Source of the DNA: Rhodoblastus acidophilus
Lineage (GTDB): Bacteria > Pseudomonadota > Alphaproteobacteria > Rhizobiales > Beijerinckiaceae
Direction of reading: 5' to 3'
Assembly: GCF_900187365.1 (NCBI RefSeq)
Contig: NZ_FYDG01000003.1
Coordinates: 248,001-312,000 of the forward strand
Length of the DNA stretch: 64,000 bases
Part shown: positions 1,052 through 14,701 of the stretch, piece after piece
Layout of the letters: the number at the start of each line of letters is the position of its first letter
Position numbering within the stretch: position 1 is the first letter of the stretch
Notes under the pieces: model-generated
What the model saw: the letters and a program-made list of their open reading frames with translations, nothing else
What the model was told of the DNA's origin: nothing
The model's database searches: none
Translations under genes and position numbers: made by a program

Positions 1052-4311
<3,260 letters not shown>

Positions 4312-4489: not shown

Positions 4490-5386
4490 ATGGGATTCAC
4501 GTCAAAACTCTTCGCCAACCCGGATTTCGGCTGGTCGAACAAGGTGCGCCCGCCCGAACACCGCCAGATCGAACTCTACACCAAGCCGCGCCTGCTCACG
4601 TTCGACGAGCCGCCCTTGCCGGAGGAGGCGCCGCTGGAGCGCATCGCGGCGGTCGCCCGCGCCGCCATCGTGTTCGAGGCGACGCTAGACGGTCTCTATC
4701 CGACGGATCTCTCCCTCACCTCCTGGGCGCGCGCGAAAGATCTGCCGAAAACCACACCGCTGGAAAAGGTCGTCGTTCAGCTGCATCGCGTCACGCGCCT
4801 GCTCCGGCTGATCGCCTTTCACCCGCACGGCCAGGTGGAGATGCGCAATGGCGTGATCTGCATGGGCGGCGTGATCGGCAAGGAAGTTTATTATTTCGAC
4901 ATCACCAGCGCCGGCCTCGACCTGATCGAGACCATGGTCGCCTACTGGTTCTTCGCCCGCGACAGCGTTTATCCCGAGGCCTATGTCGAATGGGTCTTCG
5001 CCGAAATGTTCTTCGATCTCGGCGGCGAAATCCGGCGCTATTCCGACGAGGGTCGCACCCTCTACCAGTTCCGGCGCCAGGGCGATTTCAACCGCCATTT
5101 CCGCTTCGACTGCGACAATCCGAAATCGACCTTCGAGGCCGATCACGTCCGCATCGACATCCCCGCGCCCTATCGCGACAGCGCGCGCTACGCCATCGAT
5201 TTCTACGCCGTGCTGCATGACGTGCTGCACATCATTCCGGTTGAGGCGCTGAAGGACGGCAAGATCGCCAACGCCGACCTGCCGAAATGGGAAGCGCGCG
5301 TGCGAAAAGATCCCATGTCGCTGCCGGCGGCGTTCCGGCAAAAATTCGGGCGACTGAAGCCCAGTATCAACCAGCCGATGACGTGA
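4490..5386 (+). CDS. Unrecognised 298-residue protein in the vnf operon
   Basis: I do not recognise this family. The protein appears soluble, with no signal peptide or membrane segment, and is rich in aromatic and acidic residues (KEVYYFDITSAGLDLIE, VEWVFAEMFFDLGGEI, YAVLHDVLHIIPVEAL). No cofactor motif stands out; there is only one cysteine in the long central stretch (FRFDCDNP). It lies 178 bases after vnfK on the same strand, beyond a palindromic repeat, and before a NifX-like gene. This is the position occupied by accessory genes such as anfO/anfR in Fe-only clusters. A role in VFe assembly is inferred from context alone. The ATG at 4490 is preceded by a weak GAGG. Confidence 0.75.
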   Translation: MGFTSKLFANPDFGWSNKVRPPEHRQIELYTKPRLLTFDEPPLPEEAPLERIAAVARAAIVFEATLDGLYPTDLSLTSWARAKDLPKTTPLEKVVVQLHRVTRLLRLIAFHPHGQVEMRNGVICMGGVIGKEVYYFDITSAGLDLIETMVAYWFFARDSVYPEAYVEWVFAEMFFDLGGEIRRYSDEGRTLYQFRRQGDFNRHFRFDCDNPKSTFEADHVRIDIPAPYRDSARYAIDFYAVLHDVLHIIPVEALKDGKIANADLPKWEARVRKDPMSLPAAFRQKFGRLKPSINQPMT

Positions 5387-5502: not shown

Positions 5503-5988
5503 ATGGACAGCCCGCATCTGCGCATCGCCATCACCACGGACAGCCTGACCAATCTCGACGCGCCATTCGTCGCGGCGAAAAATTTCGTCGTCTATGACGT
5601 CTCCGCCGACGAGTCCGAATTCATCGACGCGCTGCAATTCGTCCGCCGCGCCAAGGGCAAGGCGGCCGGCGGGGGCCGCGAGGCCAATGGCGGCCGCTGC
5701 GTGATGGAGGACATGGAGAACGACGACGGCACGGGCCACGATCCCTTGACCGAGCGCGTCGATGCGCTCGACGGCGTGTCGATCCTGTTCACCATGGGCC
5801 TGTCGGATCTCGCCGCCGTGCGCGTGCAGCAGTTAAAAGTTTTCCCGGTGAAGTCGGAGCGCCACCGCGCCATCGACGACGTCATCGCGCAGGTGCAAGC
5901 GATGCTGGCGGGCGTTCAGCCGCTGTGGATGCGCCGCGCCATCGCCCGCCGCACCGGCGCGGAACTGGCCGAGCAATACGCGTATTAA
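5503..5988 (+). CDS. NifX-family nitrogenase cofactor-binding protein (VnfX-like)
   Basis: 161 residues. The opening LRIAITTDSLTNLDAPFVAAKNFVVYDVSAD and the late PLWMRRAI match the NifX/NafY pattern (beta-strand entry, cofactor pocket, then a conserved PPWLR-like tail). NifX-type proteins hold FeMo-co/FeV-co precursors during transfer to the apo-enzyme. A central insert rich in Gly and Asp (GGGREANGGRC, DDGTGHDP) is unusual for the family. The ATG has an AAGGAG ribosome site. The second NifX-type domain in this island sits in the divergent gene at the left edge, so two carriers serve one enzyme here. Confidence 0.8.
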   Translation: MDSPHLRIAITTDSLTNLDAPFVAAKNFVVYDVSADESEFIDALQFVRRAKGKAAGGGREANGGRCVMEDMENDDGTGHDPLTERVDALDGVSILFTMGLSDLAAVRVQQLKVFPVKSERHRAIDDVIAQVQAMLAGVQPLWMRRAIARRTGAELAEQYAY

Positions 5989-6106: not shown

Positions 6107-6655
6107 TCACAGACGCCGGACAAATTCCGCAGGATCTGGGTTCGGCAGCGGCGGATAGGGCTTGGCGGCGGTTCCAACATAAAGGAACCCGACGATGCGG
6201 TCGCGCGGCCCCAGGCCGAGCAGACCCGGAAGATTGTCGTCATGCATCGGCCAGCCCGAGCGCCACACGCCCGCGAACCCTTGCGCGAACGCCGCCATCT
6301 GCATCGCCATCACGGCGCAGCCGGCGGCCAACTGCTGGTCGAACAGCGGCGCCAGCTTGCTCTCCCGCGCCCGCGCCGCCACCACGATCACCAGCGGCGC
6401 GCGTAGCGGCATTTTCGGCGCCCGCTCGATGTCTTCCTGCGGGCGCCCGGAGGCCTGCGCCGCCTGCCGCATCAGCGCGCCCAGCCGTTCGCGGCCCTCG
6501 CCTTCGGCGATCAGAAACGCGAACGGCTTCAGATTGAGAAAATCCGGGACGCGAAGCGCCGCGCGCAAGATCACGTCCAATTGCTCGGCGTCGGGTCCAG
6601 GCTCCTGCAAGGCGTGCATCGACTGGCGGGTCAGCAGAAGTTTTAAGGCGTCCAT
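6107..6655 (-). CDS. Nitroreductase-family flavoprotein (YdjA-like)
   Basis: 182 residues, close to YdjA (~183). FMN-dependent nitroreductase fold: TRQSMHALQEPGPD near the start (the S/R flavin-phosphate region), RVPDFLNLKPFAFLIAEG, and GLGPRDRIVGFLYVGT toward the end. The start at 6655 (MDALKLLL) was chosen because an earlier in-frame codon would overlap the upstream ABC ATPase gene. It is the last gene of the overlapping minus-strand operon, 1 base after the ATPase stop. It may supply reducing power for a metal or cofactor step; this is inferred from context. Confidence 0.85.
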   Translation of the reverse strand: MDALKLLLTRQSMHALQEPGPDAEQLDVILRAALRVPDFLNLKPFAFLIAEGEGRERLGALMRQAAQASGRPQEDIERAPKMPLRAPLVIVVAARARESKLAPLFDQQLAAGCAVMAMQMAAFAQGFAGVWRSGWPMHDDNLPGLLGLGPRDRIVGFLYVGTAAKPYPPLPNPDPAEFVRRL

Positions 6656-6656
6656 T

Positions 6657-7655
6657 TCAAATCCCGAAAGAGGGCAGGGCGTCCAGCCGCGCGCCATGGC
6701 GCAGCTGTTCGCGCAATTCGCTCATGAGACGGTCGTAACGCTCCAATGTGGCGAGATGCGCGCGCTCGGCCTCGGTCGTCTCGATCACCTCGGACACGGC
6801 GCCGGCGGCGATCACGATGCGCCGATGCGCGTAAAGCGCGAGAATCGGATCATGGGTCGATATCAGCACGATCTTGTCGCTGGCCACCAGCAGGTCAAGC
6901 GCCTGGCGCCGGTTAATGCCGGCGTTCTCGATCTCGTCGATCAGCACGATGGGCGAGGAGGAGAGCAGGGCGACGTCGGCGATCATCAGCGCGCGGCTCT
7001 GCCCGCCCGAAAGTTGCGTCAGCGAGGTCGTCGCCGAAAATTTTTCGCCCGCCAGCTCGTTGGCGCAGGCGATCACCTGCGCCGCCGCCTGTTCCGGGTC
7101 GTCGATGGCGCGACATTCCGCGTGCATTTCGACGAAATCGCCGACGGTGAGATCGACCACGAAATTCATGTTCTGCGACAGTTGCGCCACCAGCTTGCCG
7201 CTCGCCGCCCAGCGCCGCGCCGGCTCGGGAATTTCGCCGTCGATCAGGATGCGCCGCCCGGACGGCGTGTCGCCCTGCGCCAGACATTCGATGTCGCCGA
7301 GCAGACGGCTTTTGCCCGATCCGGTCGGCCCGACCACGCTGACGATCGCGCCGGGCCGCAGCTCCAGATCGAGCTGTTCCGCGCGGCCGTTCTTGTCGCG
7401 GCCGCCGAGAATGCGCAGCGAATGAACGCCGACGACTGGCGCGCGCAAAGAGTCCGCCTGCATCACCAGCGCGCGCAAATGCGCCTCCAATTCGACCCGC
7501 GAAAACTTCAGCCGGTCGAGATCGTCGGAGCCGAGGGTTGCAAGCCATTCGGCCAGCGACAGATCGGGTTTCGGCGTCGGGCCGATCAGCGCGGCGAAGG
7601 CGGGGTTGAGCCGCTGCGCCTCATCAAGCCGCAGCGACAGCGGATGCGCGCTCAT
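6657..7655 (-). CDS. Membrane-independent ABC-type ATPase
   Basis: 332 residues with one ABC nucleotide-binding domain: Walker A GPTGSGKS, signature LSGGQSRA, Walker B VLIDEIENAG, switch His in STHDP. A helical N-terminal extension of about 90 residues precedes the cassette, which is unusual for an importer subunit. No permease gene is in the operon. The ATG at 7655 overlaps the stop of the GTPase gene (ATGA), so the two are translationally coupled. The extra Glu after Walker B (DEIE) and the missing membrane partner suggest a soluble ATP-driven machine rather than a transporter, but use of a permease encoded elsewhere cannot be excluded. Confidence 0.85.
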   Translation of the reverse strand: MSAHPLSLRLDEAQRLNPAFAALIGPTPKPDLSLAEWLATLGSDDLDRLKFSRVELEAHLRALVMQADSLRAPVVGVHSLRILGGRDKNGRAEQLDLELRPGAIVSVVGPTGSGKSRLLGDIECLAQGDTPSGRRILIDGEIPEPARRWAASGKLVAQLSQNMNFVVDLTVGDFVEMHAECRAIDDPEQAAAQVIACANELAGEKFSATTSLTQLSGGQSRALMIADVALLSSSPIVLIDEIENAGINRRQALDLLVASDKIVLISTHDPILALYAHRRIVIAAGAVSEVIETTEAERAHLATLERYDRLMSELREQLRHGARLDALPSFGI

Positions 7656-8350
7656 GCCGCCGCCTCGGGAAAGCGCATCTTGCGCACATTGCCGCGCTGG
7701 TGGTTCTCGCCGATGCAGGTCTCGCCGATGCAATAGGAGCAGATCGCCGAGGGCATCGGAAACCGCAGCCGCCGCCCCTCCAAAGTGTCGAGATCGGGGG
7801 CGCCGCGCATGTGGAACGCCAGCTCGCCCGAACCTTGCCCGGTCAGCCCATTGAAGGCGACGATCTGCGCCTGCGGGTTGGCCCGCCAGACATTGTGGGC
7901 GAATACTTCGCGCTCGGCCTGCGAGACGATGTCGCCCTTGGTGATCGCCACCACATCGGCCATTTTCAGCATCGGCCCAATTTTCTTCGGCGTATGCACG
8001 CCCGACAGATTGTCCACCACGCACACCGCCAGCGCGCCCTGCACATGCGGCGAACAGCGGTTGCACAGGCCGGCGCTTTCCGCGATCAGCAGGTCGGCGC
8101 CCAAGCCCTCGGCCCATTGCAGGCAATCGTCGATGTTGGAGACGAAATAATGGTCGGGGCACACCGACCCCGCCAGCCCCGCCGCGACGGGCACGCCGGC
8201 GCGGCGATAGAGCAGGTCGTCGTCGGTGGAGAGGCAGTCGAACTTGACCACCGCCAGCTTCTGCCCCGCTTCGCGCAGGGTTTTGGCGGTCTTCACGATC
8301 AGCGAGGTTTTTCCGACCGAGGGCGGACCGGCGACGGTGATCACGCGCAT
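7652..8350 (-). CDS. HypB/UreG/CobW-like metallochaperone GTPase, cysteine-rich
   Basis: 232 residues. SIMIBI-class GTPase: P-loop GPPSVGKTS at 8-16, a switch region VVKFDCLSTDDD, and a base-specificity motif TKGD. Relatives deliver nickel to hydrogenase or urease, or cobalt/zinc elsewhere. Cysteines cluster in two likely metal sites: AGLCNRCSPH mid-protein and CSYCIGETC near the C-terminus. The ATG at 8350 overlaps the end of the preceding gene by 10 bases. In this operon, next to vnf, it is a candidate for loading a metal onto a protein or cofactor. The metal is unknown. Confidence 0.85.
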   Translation of the reverse strand: MRVITVAGPPSVGKTSLIVKTAKTLREAGQKLAVVKFDCLSTDDDLLYRRAGVPVAAGLAGSVCPDHYFVSNIDDCLQWAEGLGADLLIAESAGLCNRCSPHVQGALAVCVVDNLSGVHTPKKIGPMLKMADVVAITKGDIVSQAEREVFAHNVWRANPQAQIVAFNGLTGQGSGELAFHMRGAPDLDTLEGRRLRFPMPSAICSYCIGETCIGENHQRGNVRKMRFPEAAA

Positions 8351-9414
8351 GAAACCTCTCCCATGTCGAGGCGCTCGGTCGCGGCGTGGAACAGCGCGCA
8401 CAGGCGCTTGATCTCGGCGGCGGCGCTGCGGGCGCGCAAAAAGTCCCACCCCGGCCAGGCCAGCCGCGCCTGATCCGGCAGCCCGGCGGCGCCCGGCGCC
8501 AGCGAGGGGTAGCGGTTGTGATCGAGCCAGCGCGCGGTCGCGGGCGCGAAGAAATAATCGGCCAAAGGCGTGAGCCGTTCGCGGTGCGCGGCTTGCGCCG
8601 TCAGCCAGAGCGGGAAGGCCAGCGCGCCCTCGCGCGGCCACACCACTTCGGCGCGGTCGCGGCGCGGGCACAGGTCGGCCAGCGACCACGGCAGAACATA
8701 GATCGCGGCCAGCGAATTGGGCGTGCCCGCCAGCCGGGGCATTTGCGCCGAATGGGTCAGCCCCGCCAGATTGTCCAGCATGGCGCGCAACAGCCGGTCG
8801 CCGAGCAGGCGGGCGATGGCGACGAGAAAGAACTGGTTGAACGCCCGCCAATGCCGCGCGCCGTCGGGACGCCAGCCGGACAGAGCGATCTCGCCGCGAT
8901 AGACGGGATCGGCGAGATCAGCCCAGCTTTGCGGAATTTTTCGCGATCCCAACCGCGCCCGGTCCACCAGCAGCACGAAAGGCGCGACGGCGTAAACGCC
9001 CATCCAACCCTTGGGGTCGATCAGACCGGCCTGTTCAAACGCGTCGGCGAAGCCGGAAGGCTGCGGCGCCACAAAAGCCCCGGTCTCGACGTGGCGGGCG
9101 TGAAACGCGCGGTTGAACGCGTTGCCATGCTCGCTCGACGCCAGCAGTTTGGGAAAATCCTCGATGTCGCGGATGTAGCGCAGCCGCTCCATCGGCGTGC
9201 GCCCGCCATGGCCCATGGGCATGCAGCATTTCAGCCGCTCGGCGCCCTTGAACTGGCGTTCGCGCAGCAGATCGGCGAGTTCGTCGCGCATCCGCATCCG
9301 CAACGGCGCGGGGCAGGAGCCGAGAAAATCCCAGCCGCGCGCCACGGCGCGGGGCGCGGCGGCGTCGCCAAAGGCGCGCGGCGGCCGCGTCGTCGCCAGC
9401 GGGATCGAAATCAT
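8341..9414 (-). CDS. Binding-protein-fold protein without signal peptide (ABC solute-binding-like)
   Basis: 357 residues. Parts read like a type-2 periplasmic binding protein of the iron/polyamine class (PQSWADLADPVYRGEIALSG, VVWPREGALAFPLWLTAQAAH, PLADYFFAPATARWLDHNRYPS). The N-terminus (MISIPLATTRPPRAF) has no signal peptide or lipobox, so it should stay in the cytoplasm. A conserved-looking KCCMPMGHGG stretch at ~82-91 could bind metal. The start at 9414 overlaps the stop of the ATP-grasp gene (ATGA). No permease is encoded nearby. I infer a cytosolic metal- or ligand-holding role, paired with the soluble ATPase two genes downstream. Confidence 0.75.
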   Translation of the reverse strand: MISIPLATTRPPRAFGDAAAPRAVARGWDFLGSCPAPLRMRMRDELADLLRERQFKGAERLKCCMPMGHGGRTPMERLRYIRDIEDFPKLLASSEHGNAFNRAFHARHVETGAFVAPQPSGFADAFEQAGLIDPKGWMGVYAVAPFVLLVDRARLGSRKIPQSWADLADPVYRGEIALSGWRPDGARHWRAFNQFFLVAIARLLGDRLLRAMLDNLAGLTHSAQMPRLAGTPNSLAAIYVLPWSLADLCPRRDRAEVVWPREGALAFPLWLTAQAAHRERLTPLADYFFAPATARWLDHNRYPSLAPGAAGLPDQARLAWPGWDFLRARSAAAEIKRLCALFHAATERLDMGEVSCA

Positions 9415-10436
9415 CGCACCCATTTGCGCGTCTCCACGGCGCGCCAGTGCCGGCGCAGCGAATATTCGACGATATGGCCGAGCAGGTCGGCCTGGGTCAG
9501 GCCCTTGCGCGATGCGGCGAGGCAGATGGCCCCGCTGCGCCCGATGTGGCAGCAGATGTTGAATTCGAGGAACACCCGCCGTCCCGTTTTCTCGTCGAAA
9601 CGGTAATCGAGCCGCAGATAGTCGATCGGCCCCGCCGCCGCCCACAGTTTGCGCGCGTCCTCGGCGAAGGCGCCGTAATGCGCGCCGGCGTCGTAGAGCG
9701 CATAGCCGAGCGGGTCGTCGCGCTTCAAATCCTCGGTGATGATCTCGCCGGCGCGGTCGGAGCAGGGCCGCACAAGATCGAGGATCACGGGATCGTCGGC
9801 GCCGATCACCGGCAGGGTCACGTCCACGCCCGGCGCATAACGCTCCACCAGCACAGCCATGCCGCGTGCGAAAAGCTTTTCGGCGGCTTTTTTCGCGCCG
9901 GCCCAATCGTCCTGAATCGAATCCTCGGACACGCCCTCGGAGGCCGCGCCAAACCGGTTTTTCACAAAATAGGGTCCGGCGAAGGGCGGCGCCGCGAAAT
10001 CCTCGGCGCGCGAAAAAATCGCGCCCTCGCTGACCGGCAGCCCCAGCGAGCGGACGAAATGCTTGGTCATCCACTTGTCTTCGGCGAGGGCGCGAATGTT
10101 CGGCTTGGCGCCGATCATCGGCAGATGCAGAAATTCGCAGGTGGCGGCGACGAACACTTCGGGATTGTCGATGGCCATGCGGTTGTAGAGCGAAAAGACG
10201 AGATCGGCGTCCTGGGCCTCGGTCAGCAGCGCGCGGCATTGGTTGGAGGTGGTCACGCCATAGCCGAGATCGCGCAGGGCGTGAAAGATGCGGTGGTAAT
10301 AGGCGGGGTAGCCGCCGTCGCCGGGATAGCTGGCCACGGCGTAATCCGGCGCCATCGGCGCGGAGCGAGCCAGGAACAGGATGCGCGTCGCCTGGGGATT
10401 GGCGGGCCGCAGCAGTTTTTGCGTCAGGTCGGTCAT
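9411..10436 (-). CDS. ATP-grasp ligase, D-Ala-D-Ala ligase-like
   Basis: 341 residues. ATP-grasp fold: a Rossmann-like N-terminal part (ATRILFLARSAPMAPDYAV), lid and nucleotide-binding segments (GPYFVKNRFGAASEGVSEDS, AVLVERYAPGVDVTLPVIG), and a metal-binding VFLEFNICCHIG near the end, which corresponds to ExN of D-Ala-D-Ala ligases. Such enzymes form amide or peptide bonds through acyl-phosphates. The start at 10436 (MTDLTQ) is preceded by AAGGAAG; an in-frame ATG 15 bases earlier lacks this. It directly follows a possible 25-residue peptide gene. The substrate is unknown; a small metal ligand or a peptide is possible. Confidence 0.8.
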   Translation of the reverse strand: MTDLTQKLLRPANPQATRILFLARSAPMAPDYAVASYPGDGGYPAYYHRIFHALRDLGYGVTTSNQCRALLTEAQDADLVFSLYNRMAIDNPEVFVAATCEFLHLPMIGAKPNIRALAEDKWMTKHFVRSLGLPVSEGAIFSRAEDFAAPPFAGPYFVKNRFGAASEGVSEDSIQDDWAGAKKAAEKLFARGMAVLVERYAPGVDVTLPVIGADDPVILDLVRPCSDRAGEIITEDLKRDDPLGYALYDAGAHYGAFAEDARKLWAAAGPIDYLRLDYRFDEKTGRRVFLEFNICCHIGRSGAICLAASRKGLTQADLLGHIVEYSLRRHWRAVETRKWVR

Positions 10437-10447
10437 CGCGGCTTCCT

Positions 10448-10525
10448 TCACGCGCGGTCGCGGCGCGGCGCAGGCGTCGGGTTGGGCGGGACGATGCGGG
10501 CGTGGACGAGCGGATCTGAAGGCAT
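10448..10525 (-). CDS. Possible 25-residue peptide upstream of the ATP-grasp gene
   Basis: An ATG at 10525 has an AGAGGA ribosome site 7 bases upstream and reads 25 codons to a TGA at 10448, 11 bases before the ATP-grasp start. The peptide starts MPSDPLVHARIVPPNP and ends in an Arg-rich tail (PRRDRA). A peptide next to an ATP-grasp ligase could be a precursor, but it could equally be a leader that couples translation. No homology is known to me. Confidence 0.4.
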   Translation of the reverse strand: MPSDPLVHARIVPPNPTPAPRRDRA

Positions 10526-10538
10526 GACGGTATCCTCT

Positions 10539-10557
10539 CGCCGCAACGGGTGCGGCG
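10539..10557 (-). promoter_or_regulatory. Intercistronic hairpin before the peptide/ATP-grasp genes
   Basis: CGCCGCA (10539-10545) pairs with TGCGGCG (10551-10557) around a 5-base loop, directly upstream of the ribosome site of the possible peptide gene. It may process or attenuate the operon message after the DUF364 gene. Confidence 0.45.
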
Positions 10558-10612
10558 ATTGCCAGGGGAACGGCTCATGCCGTGTCGGACGCCGGGGCGT
10601 CGGGGCGAGCAG

Positions 10613-11824
10613 TCAGCGCTTTTCGGGCGCCGCCTCAGGCTCGCGAAGATGGATGTAGCGCCCGTAGCGGGCGAAATCTTTCGGCGTGGCGCCGCCGCGC
10701 ACCGCCTGCGCCAGCCCGTCGACGTCGCGGGCGACGAAGCCGCCGAGCACGGCGAGGCCGTAATCGTGCAGGCGCGGGGTCAGCGGCGTCGAGGGGCCGA
10801 TCAGCGCGACCGGGCGATGCCGCGCGAGGCGCAGGATACGGGTCAGGTTGCGGTTGATCAGCGCCGAGGAATTGACGATGGCGCCGCCGCAGCCGGGCAG
10901 CAGCGATTCCATCGCCGCCACCGGATATTCGCCGGGGCGCGGGTCGGTCTCGATGATGGCGCAGTGCGGCAGGATGGAATCGACGCCGGGAAACGCCCCG
11001 ACCACCACCACCGGCCCCGGCGCGCCGCGAAAGCCGCGCACGCCATTGCCGGAGGCGCCGTCGAGATCGGCGCGGTTGTAAAAGGCGTTCAGCGCGGCGA
11101 CGCCCAGCGCCGCTTCGAGCGGGTTCCACGACTGGCACAGCTGCGCCAGCGCGCGCAGCGAGAGTTTGGAAAGCTCCGGCAGGCGCGGCAGCAAGTCGCG
11201 CGGATGGCGCGGCAGATAGGCGAGGCCGGCGCCGTGCGGCCCCTCGACCAGAATCCAGCGCGGGCCGCAGACGATGCGGCGCGTCTCCACCTCCGCCACG
11301 CCAAGCGCGAGATCGTCATAAAGCCGGTCGGCGCCCCACCATTCCCACAAAGCGCGGCGGTTGGGGGCGATCATCGAGCCTTCGTGGCGCACGAACTGGT
11401 GCCAATGGTGGATGGCGCCGCCGGCGATGGTGGTCAGCAGCGGCAGGCCGCGCCCGGCGCCCGCGCCCACCGGCAGTTTCGAGGCGCGCGCCGCGTCGGT
11501 GCAGCCGGGGAAGCGGCCGACCGCGAACAGATCGGCGCCGTCGCGGATCGCCCGCGCCAGATGCGCCTCCGCCGCCAGCGGCGTTTCGACGAACGTCTTG
11601 CCGGTGGCGAGATCGACCGAGAGCGGCGCCTCGCCGATCACAACCGCCGCCTGCCGCGCGAAACCGCGCGTGACAAAACCGCGCGTGCGCAGTTCGGCGG
11701 CGAAATCGACGATGAGGCGGTCGACGATCACGGAGGGGTCGTGCACCACCACGCCGGGGCGCAGCCAGTTGGGCGCGGGGTTCGGCGCGGCGGTCTGTTG
11801 GGGGCGGCGAGATGTTTCGAGCAT
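10613..11824 (-). CDS. DUF4213/DUF364 putative heavy-metal chelation protein with extra N-terminal domain
   Basis: 403 residues. The C-terminal ~220 residues match DUF4213 (SWNPLEAALGVAALNAF) followed by DUF364 (VVVVGAFPGVDSIL, AAMESLLPGCGGAIVNSSAL, ALIGPSTPLTPRLHDYG). This family is annotated as putative heavy-metal chelation and is known mainly from anaerobes. About 150 residues in front (DLFAVGRFPGCTDAARASKL) look like an alpha/beta domain, tentatively similar to DUF2478; the family's usual length is near 250. The start at 11824 (MLETSRR) suits the short leader from the sigma54 promoter at 11854-11870. First gene of the minus-strand operon, so probably central to it. Confidence 0.8.
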   Translation of the reverse strand: MLETSRRPQQTAAPNPAPNWLRPGVVVHDPSVIVDRLIVDFAAELRTRGFVTRGFARQAAVVIGEAPLSVDLATGKTFVETPLAAEAHLARAIRDGADLFAVGRFPGCTDAARASKLPVGAGAGRGLPLLTTIAGGAIHHWHQFVRHEGSMIAPNRRALWEWWGADRLYDDLALGVAEVETRRIVCGPRWILVEGPHGAGLAYLPRHPRDLLPRLPELSKLSLRALAQLCQSWNPLEAALGVAALNAFYNRADLDGASGNGVRGFRGAPGPVVVVGAFPGVDSILPHCAIIETDPRPGEYPVAAMESLLPGCGGAIVNSSALINRNLTRILRLARHRPVALIGPSTPLTPRLHDYGLAVLGGFVARDVDGLAQAVRGGATPKDFARYGRYIHLREPEAAPEKR

Positions 11825-11837
11825 GGGCTGTCCAGAA

Positions 11838-11852
11838 TATGTAACTGAACTA
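11838..11852. promoter_or_regulatory. Operator-like motif shared with the vnfD promoter region
   Basis: TATGTAACTGAACTA matches 13 of 15 bases of 909-923 upstream of vnfD. A degenerate inverted repeat (GTCCAG at 11830-11835, CTGAAC at 11845-11850) frames it, as GTCAAG/CTTGAC does at vnfD. Here the site overlaps the predicted transcription start of the minus-strand operon, a position that would suit repression. Confidence 0.45.
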
Positions 11853-11853
11853 C

Positions 11854-11870
11854 AGCAAACCCCAGGCCAA
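11854..11870 (-). promoter_or_regulatory. sigma54 promoter of the minus-strand metal operon
   Basis: On the minus strand: TTGGCCT-N5-TTGCTG, with GG and GC exactly 10 bases apart. The predicted start is near 11844, 20 bases before the ATG of the DUF364 gene. Confidence 0.7.
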
Positions 11871-12021
11871 CGCCAGAACATGGGGCAAACGCCTGAAGAT
11901 CAGCGCTTTTGCCGCTTCGGCGCCTCGGCCAAGAGTTCGTACGCGAACGTCGTTCTTGCGAGATTGTACATTTTCGGAAGGGGCGGTCGCGGCGAGTCCC
12001 TGCTTTCGCTCGCGCGCCGTT

Positions 12022-12163: not shown

Positions 12164-12970
12164 ATGTCGATGCTGCATCTCGCCGCTCCCGTATCGTTCA
12201 TTCCTGTCGCGCCCGCGGCGCCCGCGCTGCGCGTGGACGGCCTGAGCGTGACGCGGGGCGGGCGGGCGATCCTGCGGCAGGTGTCCGCCGCTTTCGCCGC
12301 GGGGGCGGTGACGGCGGTGGTCGGCCCCTCCGGCGCCGGCAAGACGACGCTGCTCAATGTGCTCAACGGACTGGTCGAGCCGAGCTGCGGAATGGTGGCG
12401 TCGGAGCAGCTGGGGGCGTTGCGCAGCGCGGAGTCCTGGGCCGCGCTGCGCCAACGCGCCGCCACCATCTTTCAGGACCATGCCCTGATCGGGCGCCTGA
12501 GCGCGCTGGATAATGTCCTGCTCGCCTTCGCCGACACGCGCCACCCGCTGTCGCCCTGGCCCTGGCCGCGTTTCGCGCGCGAGGCGGCGGCCAGGGCGCT
12601 TGCGGATGTCGGCCTGCTCGACCGCGCCTTCGAGCGGGTGGACAATTTTTCCGGCGGCGAGCGCCAGCGCGTGGGCGTCGCCCGGGCGCTGGCGCGCGGG
12701 CCGCGCCTGCTGCTGGGCGACGAGCCGTTCTCCTCGCTCGACCCGCCGCTGGCGCGCCGCCTCTGCGACGATCTGCGCGCGCTGGCCGTGCGCGATGGCG
12801 TGACCGTCGTGCTGGTGCTGCACCAGATCGCGCTGGCCCGCGCGCTCGCCGACCGCATCGTCGGCCTCAACGACGGCCGCGTGCTGTTCGACGGGCCCGC
12901 CCACGCTTTTGACGCCGCCACGGAGGCGACGGTGTTCGCCGCCCATTCCCATCTCAATCAAGGAGTCTGA
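12164..12970 (+). CDS. ABC importer ATPase, PhnC-like (phosphonate/oxyanion type)
   Basis: 268 residues. Walker A VGPSGAGKTTLLN, signature FSGGERQRVGVARAL, Walker B LLGDEPFSSLD, switch VLVLHQ. The pattern is that of PhnC-type ATPases. Start at 12164 (MSMLHLAAP), after a GGAG. It begins a three-gene operon (ATPase, binding protein, permease) divergent from the metal operon. No phosphonate-degrading genes are near. Because vanadate mimics phosphate and the next cluster is vnf, import of vanadate for the FeV cofactor is a plausible substrate assignment; phosphonate or phosphite remain alternatives. Confidence 0.85.
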   Translation: MSMLHLAAPVSFIPVAPAAPALRVDGLSVTRGGRAILRQVSAAFAAGAVTAVVGPSGAGKTTLLNVLNGLVEPSCGMVASEQLGALRSAESWAALRQRAATIFQDHALIGRLSALDNVLLAFADTRHPLSPWPWPRFAREAAARALADVGLLDRAFERVDNFSGGERQRVGVARALARGPRLLLGDEPFSSLDPPLARRLCDDLRALAVRDGVTVVLVLHQIALARALADRIVGLNDGRVLFDGPAHAFDAATEATVFAAHSHLNQGV

Positions 12971-12971
12971 C

Positions 12972-13868
12972 ATGCTGAACTTCTCCCGCCGCCTCGCCTG
13001 CGCGGCGCTGGCGGCCGCGCTCGCCGGACCCGCGCTGGCGCAACCGGCGGCGCCGGACGCCGCGCGTCCGCAAAAACTGGTCATCGGCCTGCTGCCGACG
13101 GAATCCGCGCCCACGGTGATGCGGCTTAACGAACCGCTGCGCGCCTATCTGGAGGCGCGGCTCAAAATGCCGGTGGAGGTGGTGGTCGGCGCCAATTACG
13201 CAGCGACTTCCGAGGCGCTGCGCTTCGGCCGCCTCGACATCGCCTATCTCGGCCCGGTCACCTACATTCTGCAATCGCAGCACGCCGGCCTCGAACCGTT
13301 CGCGCGGCCGAGCCACGCCGGGGTCGGCCCGACCTTCCAGGCGACGATCATCGTTCCCGCCGCCAGCAAGGCGCAAAGCCTCGCCGATCTCAAGGGCGGC
13401 GAAATCGCCTTCGGCGATCCGGCCTCGACCTCCGGCACCTGGGCGCCGCGCTGGCAATTGCTGCACGAGGGCCTGATCTCCGGCCGCGACTATACGCTGC
13501 GCGTGCTCGGCGCGCATGACGCCGTCGCGCTGGCGGTGGCCAATGGCAAGGTCGCGGCGGGCGGCCTGTCCAAGCCGATCCTCAACCGGCTGATCAAGGA
13601 GGGCAAGATCGATCCGGCCAAGGTGCGGGTGCTTCAGGACTCCCCGCCCATCCCCGAATATATCTGGACGTTTCGCGCCGGGCTCGATCCCGCCTTCAAG
13701 GAGGACGTGCGCAAGGCGTTCCTTGAGATCAAGGATCCGGCGGCGCTCGGCGTGTTCCGCGCCGAAGCCTTCATTCCCGCCGTGGACGCCGATGTCGACC
13801 GCGTGCGAAACTGGATCGCGGCGATCCAGACGGTGAGCGCGCAGACCGCGTGGACGCCGGCGCCATGA
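12972..13868 (+). CDS. PhnD-like periplasmic oxyanion-binding protein
   Basis: 298 residues with a clear Sec signal peptide (MLNFSRRLACAALAAALAGPALAQ). PhnD family: QKLVIGLLPTESAPTVM, DIAYLGPVTYIL, and the binding loop FGDPASTSGTW, where the Ser/Thr/Gly cluster holds phosphonate-like tetrahedral anions. It starts 1 base after the ATPase gene. The preserved DPASTSGT loop supports an anion ligand. Vanadate is inferred only from the vnf neighbourhood and the shared sigma54-type promoters. Confidence 0.88.
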   Translation: MLNFSRRLACAALAAALAGPALAQPAAPDAARPQKLVIGLLPTESAPTVMRLNEPLRAYLEARLKMPVEVVVGANYAATSEALRFGRLDIAYLGPVTYILQSQHAGLEPFARPSHAGVGPTFQATIIVPAASKAQSLADLKGGEIAFGDPASTSGTWAPRWQLLHEGLISGRDYTLRVLGAHDAVALAVANGKVAAGGLSKPILNRLIKEGKIDPAKVRVLQDSPPIPEYIWTFRAGLDPAFKEDVRKAFLEIKDPAALGVFRAEAFIPAVDADVDRVRNWIAAIQTVSAQTAWTPAP

Positions 13869-14701
13869 TCTTGGGCGCCGCGCAGCCTTCTCCCTATGAC
13901 GCGCTCGCGGGCGACTGGCGCCGCCTGCAACGGCGGCGGCTCACGGCCGGCGCCCTCGCGGCGGCGGCGGCGTTCGCCGCCTTCGCCTATGCCGGCGCGC
14001 TGGAGTTTTCGCGTTACGCCGACGCCCTGCGCACGCTGGCGCAACTGGCGCAAGACTCGACGCCGCCCGATTTTTCGCGCTGGCGCGAATGGGGGCGGCC
14101 GCTGCTGGAGACGCTCGCCACCGGAATCGCCGGCACGGCGCTCGGCGCCGCGCTGGCGCTGCCGCTGTCCGCCCTGGCGGCGCGCAACGCCGGCGCGCCG
14201 GTCTGGCTCAACGAAATCGTGCGCTTCGCCCTCGGCGCGGTCCGGTCGTTGCCGGGCCTGATCTGGGGCGTGATCTTCGTGGCGGCGGTGGGGTTCGGCC
14301 CGTTGCCGGGCGTGCTGGCGCTGGGCGCCCATTCCACGGGCATGTTGGGCAAATTGTTCTTCGAGGCGCTGGAGCATGTCGAGCCAGGCCCCGGCGCCGC
14401 GCTGCGCGCGCAAGGCGCCTCGAAGCTCGCCGTATTCCGCTACGCGCAACTGCCGCAGGCGCTGCCGCGCCTCGCCGATGCGCTGATCTATCGCCTTGAG
14501 CACAATCTGCGCGCGGCGACCACGCTCGGCCTCGTCGGCGCCGGCGGGTTCGGCCTCGAAATCGTCACCGCCTTCCACCTGTTCGAATATCGCGAGGCGT
14601 CGGCGCTGATCCTGGTCCTGCTCGCTCTGGTCACCTCGGTGAACTTTTTCGGCGCGGCGTTGCGGCGAAGCCTGCTGCACGCGCGCCCGGAGCGGAAGTA
14701 G
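13865..14701 (+). CDS. PhnE-like ABC permease
   Basis: 278 residues. Inner-membrane permease with about six hydrophobic segments (AGALAAAAAFAAFAYAGAL, TLATGIAGTALGAALALPLS, the segment around SLPGLIWGVIFVAAVGF, the C-terminal stretch ASALILVLLALVTSV). The PhnE coupling region lies around EHVEPGPGAALRAQGAS. The ATG at 13865 overlaps the binding-protein stop (ATGA); an in-frame ATG 15 bases earlier is possible. It completes a self-sufficient importer, in contrast with the permease-less operon on the other strand. Confidence 0.88.
   Translation: MILGAAQPSPYDALAGDWRRLQRRRLTAGALAAAAAFAAFAYAGALEFSRYADALRTLAQLAQDSTPPDFSRWREWGRPLLETLATGIAGTALGAALALPLSALAARNAGAPVWLNEIVRFALGAVRSLPGLIWGVIFVAAVGFGPLPGVLALGAHSTGMLGKLFFEALEHVEPGPGAALRAQGASKLAVFRYAQLPQALPRLADALIYRLEHNLRAATTLGLVGAGGFGLEIVTAFHLFEYREASALILVLLALVTSVNFFGAALRRSLLHARPERK

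Follow-up and report, generated by a model that had tools for sequence, protein, structure and literature searches.

The six-gene operon beside the vnf genes

We analyzed a 64,000-nucleotide (nt) stretch of Rhodoblastus acidophilus DNA (contig NZ_FYDG01000003.1, positions 248,001 to 312,000; here called the window), in which open reading frame (ORF) and domain scans placed six minus-strand genes, A to F, running from 11824 to 6107 between a vnfX-like gene and a vanadate-type transporter. An earlier sequence-only reading had described six long, one-strand genes with metal-handling domains next to a vanadium nitrogenase (V-nitrogenase), and both the genes and their domains were confirmed by ORF coordinates and by Pfam and NCBIfam. 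The parts of the operon are as follows:

10613..11824, minus strand: A, DUF2478 (C-terminal half)-DUF4213-DUF364 protein (Pfam)
9411..10436, minus strand: B, ATP-grasp ligase, D-Ala-D-Ala ligase-like (PF07478, Dala_Dala_lig_C)
8341..9423 (alternative ATG start at 9414), minus strand: C, SBP_bac_6 binding protein (PF13343)
7652..8350, minus strand: D, HypB/UreG-like GTPase (Pfam/NCBIfam, cobW/HypB/UreG)
6657..7655, minus strand: E, ABC ATPase without a permease, with an N-terminal extension ahead of Walker A (PF00005)
6107..6655, minus strand: F, YdjA-type minimal nitroreductase (PF00881, NF008088)
10448..10525, minus strand: 25-amino-acid (aa) ORF between A and B, not conserved

The tight spacing reported earlier was reproduced for C and D (10-nt overlap), D and E (4-nt overlap), and E and F (1 nt apart); the B/C overlap is 13 or 4 nt, according to which start of C is used. 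The remaining long ORFs on the operon strand appeared by eye to be out-of-frame overlaps. No permease was found among the six genes with Pfam or NCBIfam, in agreement with the earlier description, and the VodABC-type permease near the operon lies on the opposite strand, accompanied by its own ATPase. The possible peptide that had been pointed out between A and B does exist as an ORF, but we rejected it as a conserved gene: the 25-aa ORF is not kept even in R. acidophilus DSM 142 (L008), where a similar upstream sequence and ribosome-binding site precede an 82-aa ORF that cannot be aligned with it. The 25-aa ORF may be a remnant of the site where L008 has its 82-aa ORF.

Relatives of the GTPase and their tracking of VnfD

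At least 514 relatives of D were confirmed in a scan of named genomes, and the best 80 were kept, so that the sample leans to close relatives. Together with the window, a Fusobacterium record (L005), and two stretches of genome G139, these made 84 sequences for comparison. D was found in 83 of them (L007, the continuation of L006, is without it), and in these 83 loci E was near D in 81 and C in 80, at scores of at least 50 bits. The Fusobacterium vincentii record (NZ_CP084075.1), named plasmid pSB055A, is 2.1 Mb long, contains dnaK- and dnaJ-like genes by eye, and may be a mislabelled chromosome.

Twenty-seven loci, all from Pseudomonadota, had what we call the V-type context. The nitroreductase F was present in 24 of these 27 loci versus 0 of the 56 others, a VodA-type binding protein in 11, and vnfD or vnfK (>400 bits) inside the fetched stretch in 11. 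An ATP-grasp ligase was encoded at 14 V-type loci and a GCS2 ligase at 9, with both at none and neither at 4; the GCS2 ligase takes the place of ATP-grasp in gamma- and betaproteobacteria. The GCS2 protein of L021 had no match within the first 22 kb of the window, where the ATP-grasp gene is present instead. Other triads of C, D, and E were of class i (Spirochaetes, Cloacimonadota, Fusobacteria, Clostridia, and others) or class ii (Clostridia, Chlorobi, Deferribacterota, and methanogens).

In quick GTPase trees with Shimodaira-Hasegawa-like approximate likelihood ratio (SH-aLRT) support only and a midpoint root, the 27 V-type rows formed one side of a branch in two trees (support 98 and 97), with Deferribacterota and a single class ii row from Oscillospiraceae as neighbors in the latter. 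Class i formed its own group of 48 rows (support 95). G139 also carries a second C-D-E triad (L006:8945-17247), among FecB/FecC/ABC genes and a TonB-dependent-receptor-like gene (by eye); its other triad lies about 9 kb away and is accompanied by a nitroreductase gene and vnfEN.

The VnfD model TIGR01860 was then applied to 49 GTPase-holding genomes, chosen by their GTPase, out of 81 loci intended; we use "AnfD-level" for matches of about 670 to 725 bits on this VnfD model, which is not a test with an AnfD model. VnfD exceeded its cut-off in 24 of 26 Pseudomonadota versus 3 of 23 other GTPase genomes (Fisher 1.2e-8; the Fisher tests here ignore shared ancestry). A draw of 385 alphaproteobacterial genomes, not chosen by GTPase, held VnfD only in the R. 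acidophilus genome and in G487, and the independently drawn G487 carries B-C-D-E-F. Across the 149 genomes of the Xanthobacteraceae-type family of G253, VnfD and the GTPase each occurred only in the centre genome, itself chosen by GTPase. Six others had AnfD-level matches, and none of these six had the GTPase at E<=1e-30, with distant matches of 1.6e-8 or weaker. The gammaproteobacterial draw (369 genomes, class of G262) contained VnfD in its centre only, and the archaeal draw contained no VnfD genome and hence has no bearing on co-occurrence.

The Clostridiaceae offered a further comparison outside Proteobacteria. Among 146 genomes of the family of G283, 9 had VnfD, 29 had the GTPase, and 8 had both, so that the GTPase was found in 8 of 9 VnfD-positive versus 21 of 137 VnfD-negative genomes (Fisher 7.9e-6, or 3.6e-5 without the centre). 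With classes read off the GTPase tree and the divergent G1199 and G1220 counted in neither, the source of this signal was class ii (7 of 9 versus 9 of 137; 1.5e-6) rather than class i (1 of 9 versus 10 of 137; 0.52). Each of two Bacillota has a contig on which the triad occurs together with vnf and FecBCD genes. We rejected a generic alternative-nitrogenase factor as an explanation for the operon: genomes with only an AnfD-level match were mostly without the GTPase (0 of 6 in Xanthobacteraceae with it, 1 of 4 in Clostridiaceae). The co-occurrence survey that the sequence-only reading had called for gave a divided answer, in that the C-D-E triad is widespread without alternative nitrogenases, whereas its nitroreductase-bearing proteobacterial lineage is tightly linked to V-nitrogenase.

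Published work, cited here and below from excerpts of the papers, describes a closely similar operon. Avin_02430-02390 of Azotobacter vinelandii is VnfA1 dependent, and without its last gene it is conserved in V-nitrogenase Proteobacteria, with VodABC named in the same work; the terminal glutamate-cysteine ligase is not conserved outside Azotobacter (PMC9542535). The earlier statement that no system with this gene set had been described therefore fails for the core of binding protein, GTPase, ABC ATPase, and nitroreductase. The excerpts of PMC9542535, PMC3223731, PMC2954201, and PMC4465626 assign no function to C-D-E-F. The window operon is a real V-nitrogenase accessory operon, a variant of the published, uncharacterized one, and its gene set is not new. 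New here are the tracking of VnfD by the GTPase, the spread of the triad in anaerobes, the D-E fusions, the invariant cysteines of D, and the ligase swap.

Protein features, control region, and neighborhood

The GTPase D scored 44 bits in the cobW/HypB/UreG family (Pfam) and fell below the curated cut-offs for both HypB (TIGR00073, 50.9 versus 121.2 bits) and UreG (TIGR00101, 26.9 versus 204.2 bits). It is homologous to UreG and HypB over its length, and RecA and MMAA also match via the nucleotide-binding part. C64-P of D falls on the CPH of UreG in the alignment; C64, C96, C99, C110, C204, and C207 were cysteine in 83 of 83 loci, with H67 conserved in at least 97%, and the invariant cysteines are candidate metal ligands. 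Some of the lowest-confidence parts of the AlphaFold model of D (mean predicted local distance difference test [pLDDT] score, 81.9) are loops 62-66 and 201-203, which might fit an empty metal site, though as a weak argument.

At 81 of the 83 loci, the gene for the ABC ATPase E (ABC_tran, PF00005, 58 bits) was no more than 3.5 kb away from that for D. D and E probably act together, because they are naturally fused in two Bacillota (L048:4802-6331, 509 aa; L117:1480-3024, 514 aa). We also considered whether the N-terminal extension of E is a DUF1858/ScdA_N domain moved from C. This was not upheld: Pfam matches were sub-threshold (E 0.035 to 0.22, in 4 of 10 proteins), and profile comparison gave E 0.003 but a probability of 10%.

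For the binding protein C (SBP_bac_6, 195.5 bits), hydropathy of the first 40 residues revealed no signal-peptide-like stretch, in keeping with the earlier reading of a binding fold without a signal peptide. The best 11-residue hydropathy in this region ranged from -0.19 to 1.59 in 26 V-type C proteins, and the adjacent VodA-like protein scored 2.41; the measure is not a clean separator, as 3 of 25 PhnD/FecB-type binding-protein controls fall below 1.7. C is thus probably a cytosolic binding protein. Its AlphaFold model has a mean pLDDT of 89.8, and its nearest solved relatives by profile were P5PA and a periplasmic iron-binding protein (pyridoxal phosphate [PLP] and iron binding). In an alignment across classes at low identity, V-type C proteins were set apart by R185, R254, R255, N303, and Y305 and a short WRP insertion, residues that would suit an oxyanion.

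A matched DUF364 (PF04016) at 94.8 bits (cut-off 23) and DUF4213 at 55.8 (cut-off 23.5), and the extra domain reported earlier proved real, corresponding to the C-terminal half of DUF2478 (33.7 bits, cut-off 22.3; Pfam). The closest solved structure to A is 3l5o. B reached 24.5 bits for Dala_Dala_lig_C (cut-off 24; Pfam). F belongs to PF00881 and scored 184 bits for NF008088 (cut-off 183), with YdjA and a putative NAD(P)H nitroreductase as its closest solved structures.

Ahead of A, motif searches placed two elements:

11854..11869, minus strand: sigma-54 (-24/-12) promoter match TGGCCTGGGGTTTGCT (motif search)
11935..11948, no strand assigned: VnfA-like site, palindromic GTTC-N6-GAAC (GTWCN6GWAC match)

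The sigma-54 pattern TGGCNNGNNNNTTGCW had 2 matches in 64 kb versus 0.28 expected, one of them 29 nt ahead of the ATG of A. GTWCN6GWAC had a single match in the window (1.13 expected), 65 nt further upstream than the sigma-54 match. The VnfA1 motif is published as GT(T/A)C-N6-GTAC (PMC9542535); our search relaxed the second half to GWAC, and the window site is a relaxed match. When the 350 bp ahead of A, B, or C were searched, V-type loci had the sigma-54 motif in 11 of 27 cases, the VnfA-like motif in 19, both in 9, and either in 21. By chance, a single 350-bp stretch drawn for each V-type locus is expected to yield the sigma-54 motif at 0.25 loci, the VnfA-like motif at 1.01, and both at 0.08, although up to three stretches were searched per locus and a fair expectation is up to threefold higher. 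The 56 loci outside the V-type context, 54 of them with a C gene whose upstream region could be searched, had neither motif; they differ in base composition, and 0.03 (sigma-54) and 0.58 (VnfA-like) were expected for them. These motifs suggest that the operon lies behind a VnfA/sigma-54-type promoter. The second perfect sigma-54 match, at 659-674 on the minus strand, is immediately upstream of a minus-strand NifX-like gene (L092:18477-19325) that extends to window position 625.

To the left of the operon lie vnfD-vnfG-vnfK and the vnfX-like gene, and to its right transporter genes that diverge from it:

1055..2470, plus strand: vnfD (TIGR01860, 977.3 bits, cut-off 823.1)
2467..2808, plus strand: vnfG (placed between vnfD and vnfK; homologues in 10 loci)
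2923..4311, plus strand: vnfK (TIGR02932, 856.4 bits, slightly below the cut-off of 873.95)
4490-5386, plus strand: 298-aa protein between vnfK and vnfX (clustered in 8 loci)
5503..5988, plus strand: vnfX-like gene (PF02579, 36.7 bits; nifX, 87.5 bits, below the cut-off of 112)
12164..12970, plus strand: ATPase of the PhnCDE/VodABC-type (vanadate) transporter (Pfam and literature)
12972..13868, plus strand: VodA-like binding protein with a signal-peptide-like start (similarity)
13865..14701, plus strand: permease of the PhnCDE/VodABC-type transporter (position; homologous in 11 loci)

The V-nitrogenase identity given in the earlier reading stands on the VnfD score, with VnfK just under its own cut-off. 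The 298-aa protein had no Pfam or NCBIfam match and is possibly the "conserved uncharacterized protein" found after vnfDGK in Azotobacter (PMC4465626, excerpt), where a transporter beside vnfDGK-X is also noted. RPA1385 in the vnf region of Rhodopseudomonas palustris, annotated as a phosphonate-binding protein, binds vanadate (PMC3223731); the VodA-like protein of the window is 79% identical to its counterpart in an R. palustris metagenome-assembled genome (MAG; L012), RPA1385 not being the sequence compared. On the same contig, a NifH-like gene lies 0.3 to 1.1 kb upstream of the window and, at 3.3 to 4.9 kb, a gene 72% identical to the activator beside vnfEN in G139, which we label VnfA-like by position only. 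The R. acidophilus genome has, in addition, a gene for an AnfD-level nitrogenase alpha subunit (G000:C39:75621-76991, 705.9 bits on the VnfD model).

Proposed function, alternatives, and known systems

The conserved linkage, the VnfA/sigma-54-type motifs, and the HypB/UreG-like GTPase bear out the earlier proposal of a soluble, nucleotide-driven system tied to V-nitrogenase. To our knowledge, the route of vanadium to the scaffold of the iron-vanadium (FeV) cofactor is not known, and we know of no NifQ counterpart for vanadium; the operon is a well-placed candidate set for vanadium delivery, with an orthologue in the tractable A. vinelandii. We consider the chances about even that the operon is a cytosolic metal-handling machine supporting V-nitrogenase, a metallochaperone module recruited to supply vanadium. 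What is inferred in this model is which metal is handled, which way it is passed, that it is reduced, and which partner and ligand take part. A VodABC-type transporter would import vanadate, and cytosolic C would capture vanadium as an oxyanion or chelate. The flavin nitroreductase F would keep or make vanadium reduced, and it could reduce V(V). D and E, as one unit, would pass vanadium to FeV-cofactor assembly (VnfEN/VnfX), a transfer that would be the vanadium counterpart of the NifQ step. The task of B (in gamma- and betaproteobacteria, the GCS2 ligase) and A would be the synthesis or processing of a small chelating ligand. Because ATP-grasp and GCS2 ligases swap, ATP-driven ligation is suggested to be part of the vanadium pathway.

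Several observations weigh against vanadium delivery as the whole account. Among the 23 non-proteobacterial triad genomes, 20 are without VnfD, 16 of them also without an AnfD-level match and 4 with one in its place. The proteobacterial MAGs G256 and G267 hold the GTPase and no VnfD over the cut-off, although MAGs may be incomplete, and L015 of G256 has a piece of VnfK beside the GTPase. Clostridiaceae G1264 has VnfD and AnfD-level proteins and no GTPase even at E 0.001, and the second, divergent GTPase of G139 falls outside the V group, on a long branch. Lastly, the A. vinelandii operon promoter belongs to VnfA1 class A and is active under V and Fe-only conditions alike (PMC9542535).

Because the triad occurs in organisms without V-nitrogenase, vanadium cannot be its sole cargo. 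The C-D-E core may be a general metal-handling machine. A more specific version of this idea, which we put forward tentatively, is that C-D-E is an undescribed nucleotide-driven metal-insertion machine found across many anaerobic phyla, acting as the FeV-cofactor vanadium donor in V-nitrogenase bacteria and on another metal elsewhere, with a HypA-like zinc-ribbon partner. We recognized no description of the C-D-E triad in non-diazotrophs in the open-licence literature, and the excerpts of HcpR literature contained no passage recognizably about it. With the core in many anaerobic phyla, mostly without V-nitrogenase, what appears as a nitrogenase accessory is possibly a general metalloprotein-maturation module.

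The class i contexts speak for a different account, in which C-D-E handles iron or Fe-S clusters in general: it would move iron or a cluster precursor, or rescue clusters damaged in redox or nitrosative stress, and its recruitment by V-nitrogenase bacteria would answer a demand for extra Fe-S capacity in the FeV pathway. Class i triads lie beside Rrf2 regulators (11 loci) and Hcp (9 loci), class i C starts with a DUF1858 domain (tested on L005; others by alignment), and the nearest solved relatives of C include, weakly, iron-binding proteins. In 28 loci, class i triads adjoin an 80-aa zinc-ribbon protein (e.g., L083:4282-4524) with CxxC..CxxC and TPCHAF, which is weakly HypA-like (PF01155, 19.2 bits, cut-off 28.9) and whose family matches, HypA and rubredoxin-like, are all sub-threshold. 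However, in Proteobacteria the triad goes with VnfD and is missing where only an AnfD-level protein is present, although such genomes need the same Fe-S chemistry, and V-type C has charged residues of its own. We regard this account as rather unlikely.

Processing of a metal chelate, imported or home-made, is improbable in our judgment. Here the ligase and the DUF364 protein would make a chelator, C and E would handle the complex, and F and D would strip the metal. The mutual replacement of two unrelated ATP-dependent ligases near the triad is in line with this scheme, as are the FecB/FecC genes that neighbor the triad in Clostridia, Chlorobi, and G139 and the role in chelator synthesis, with a vanadium context noted, proposed for DUF364 (PMC2954201). 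Class ii triads have FecB/FecC and ABC genes (representatives tested), a methyltransferase gene, and in some cases nif and genes that look Mod-type by eye. Yet the 56 non-V loci have no ATP-grasp or GCS2 protein among their matches and only one DUF364 protein, and the transporter adjoining the window operon is of the vanadate and not the siderophore type.

Delivery of nickel or another divalent metal to an unidentified enzyme merely coregulated with vnf seems very improbable: D is related to HypB and UreG, and its A. vinelandii orthologue is annotated as a nickel binding GTPase (PMC9542535), but D lies under both curated cut-offs, the linkage is to vnf and vanadate transport, and no Ni enzyme was recognized beside the operon, with no search aimed at one. 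Least probable of all is vanadium sensing, in which C would be a cytosolic vanadium sensor and would set VnfA-type activators via D and E. Such a sensor role has been proposed for VnfZ, a VodA paralogue without a signal peptide that acts with VnfA3 in A. vinelandii (PMC9542535). Against it, C is an SBP_bac_6 protein unlike the PhnD-type VodA and VnfZ, a sensor would not need two nucleotide hydrolases plus a nitroreductase and a ligase, and the triad is present in genomes without VnfD.

Returning to vanadium delivery by the operon, we compared it with known systems. It differs from an ordinary ABC importer in having no permease and a C protein without a signal-peptide-like stretch by hydropathy. 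The VodABC/RPA1385 transporter adjoins the operon in the window and shares its proposed cargo (PMC9542535, PMC3223731), but it imports across the membrane and its PhnD-type binding protein is exported, whereas C is of another binding-protein family and appears to lack a signal peptide. D resembles HypB/UreG GTPases, which work with HypA, in its G-domain and UreG-like CP(x)H site, and the weakly HypA-like zinc ribbon beside class i triads extends the likeness. In contrast to HypB and UreG, D scores far below both cut-offs, has additional CxxC motifs at 96-99 and 204-207, and is linked with both an ABC ATPase and a binding protein.

Soluble ABC ATPases of the SufC type are, like E, permease-less ABC ATPases in metal-cofactor work, but the operon has no SufB/SufD-like gene and E is partnered by a GTPase, in some cases as a fusion. 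NifQ is the molybdenum donor to FeMo-cofactor assembly. The window proteins would share with NifQ the role of heterometal donor to a NifEN-like scaffold, although they belong to other families and form a nucleotide-driven, multiprotein set. The closest likeness is to the Avin_02430-02400 type, which has the same contiguous order of binding protein, metal GTPase, ABC ATPase, and nitroreductase as C-D-E-F, the same link to V-nitrogenase (VnfD is encoded in the same genome as the window operon), and sigma-54/VnfA control, by motifs only in the window and by experiment in A. vinelandii. Relative to the full Avin_02430-02390 operon, the window has upstream ATP-grasp and DUF364 genes instead of a terminal glutamate-cysteine ligase gene.

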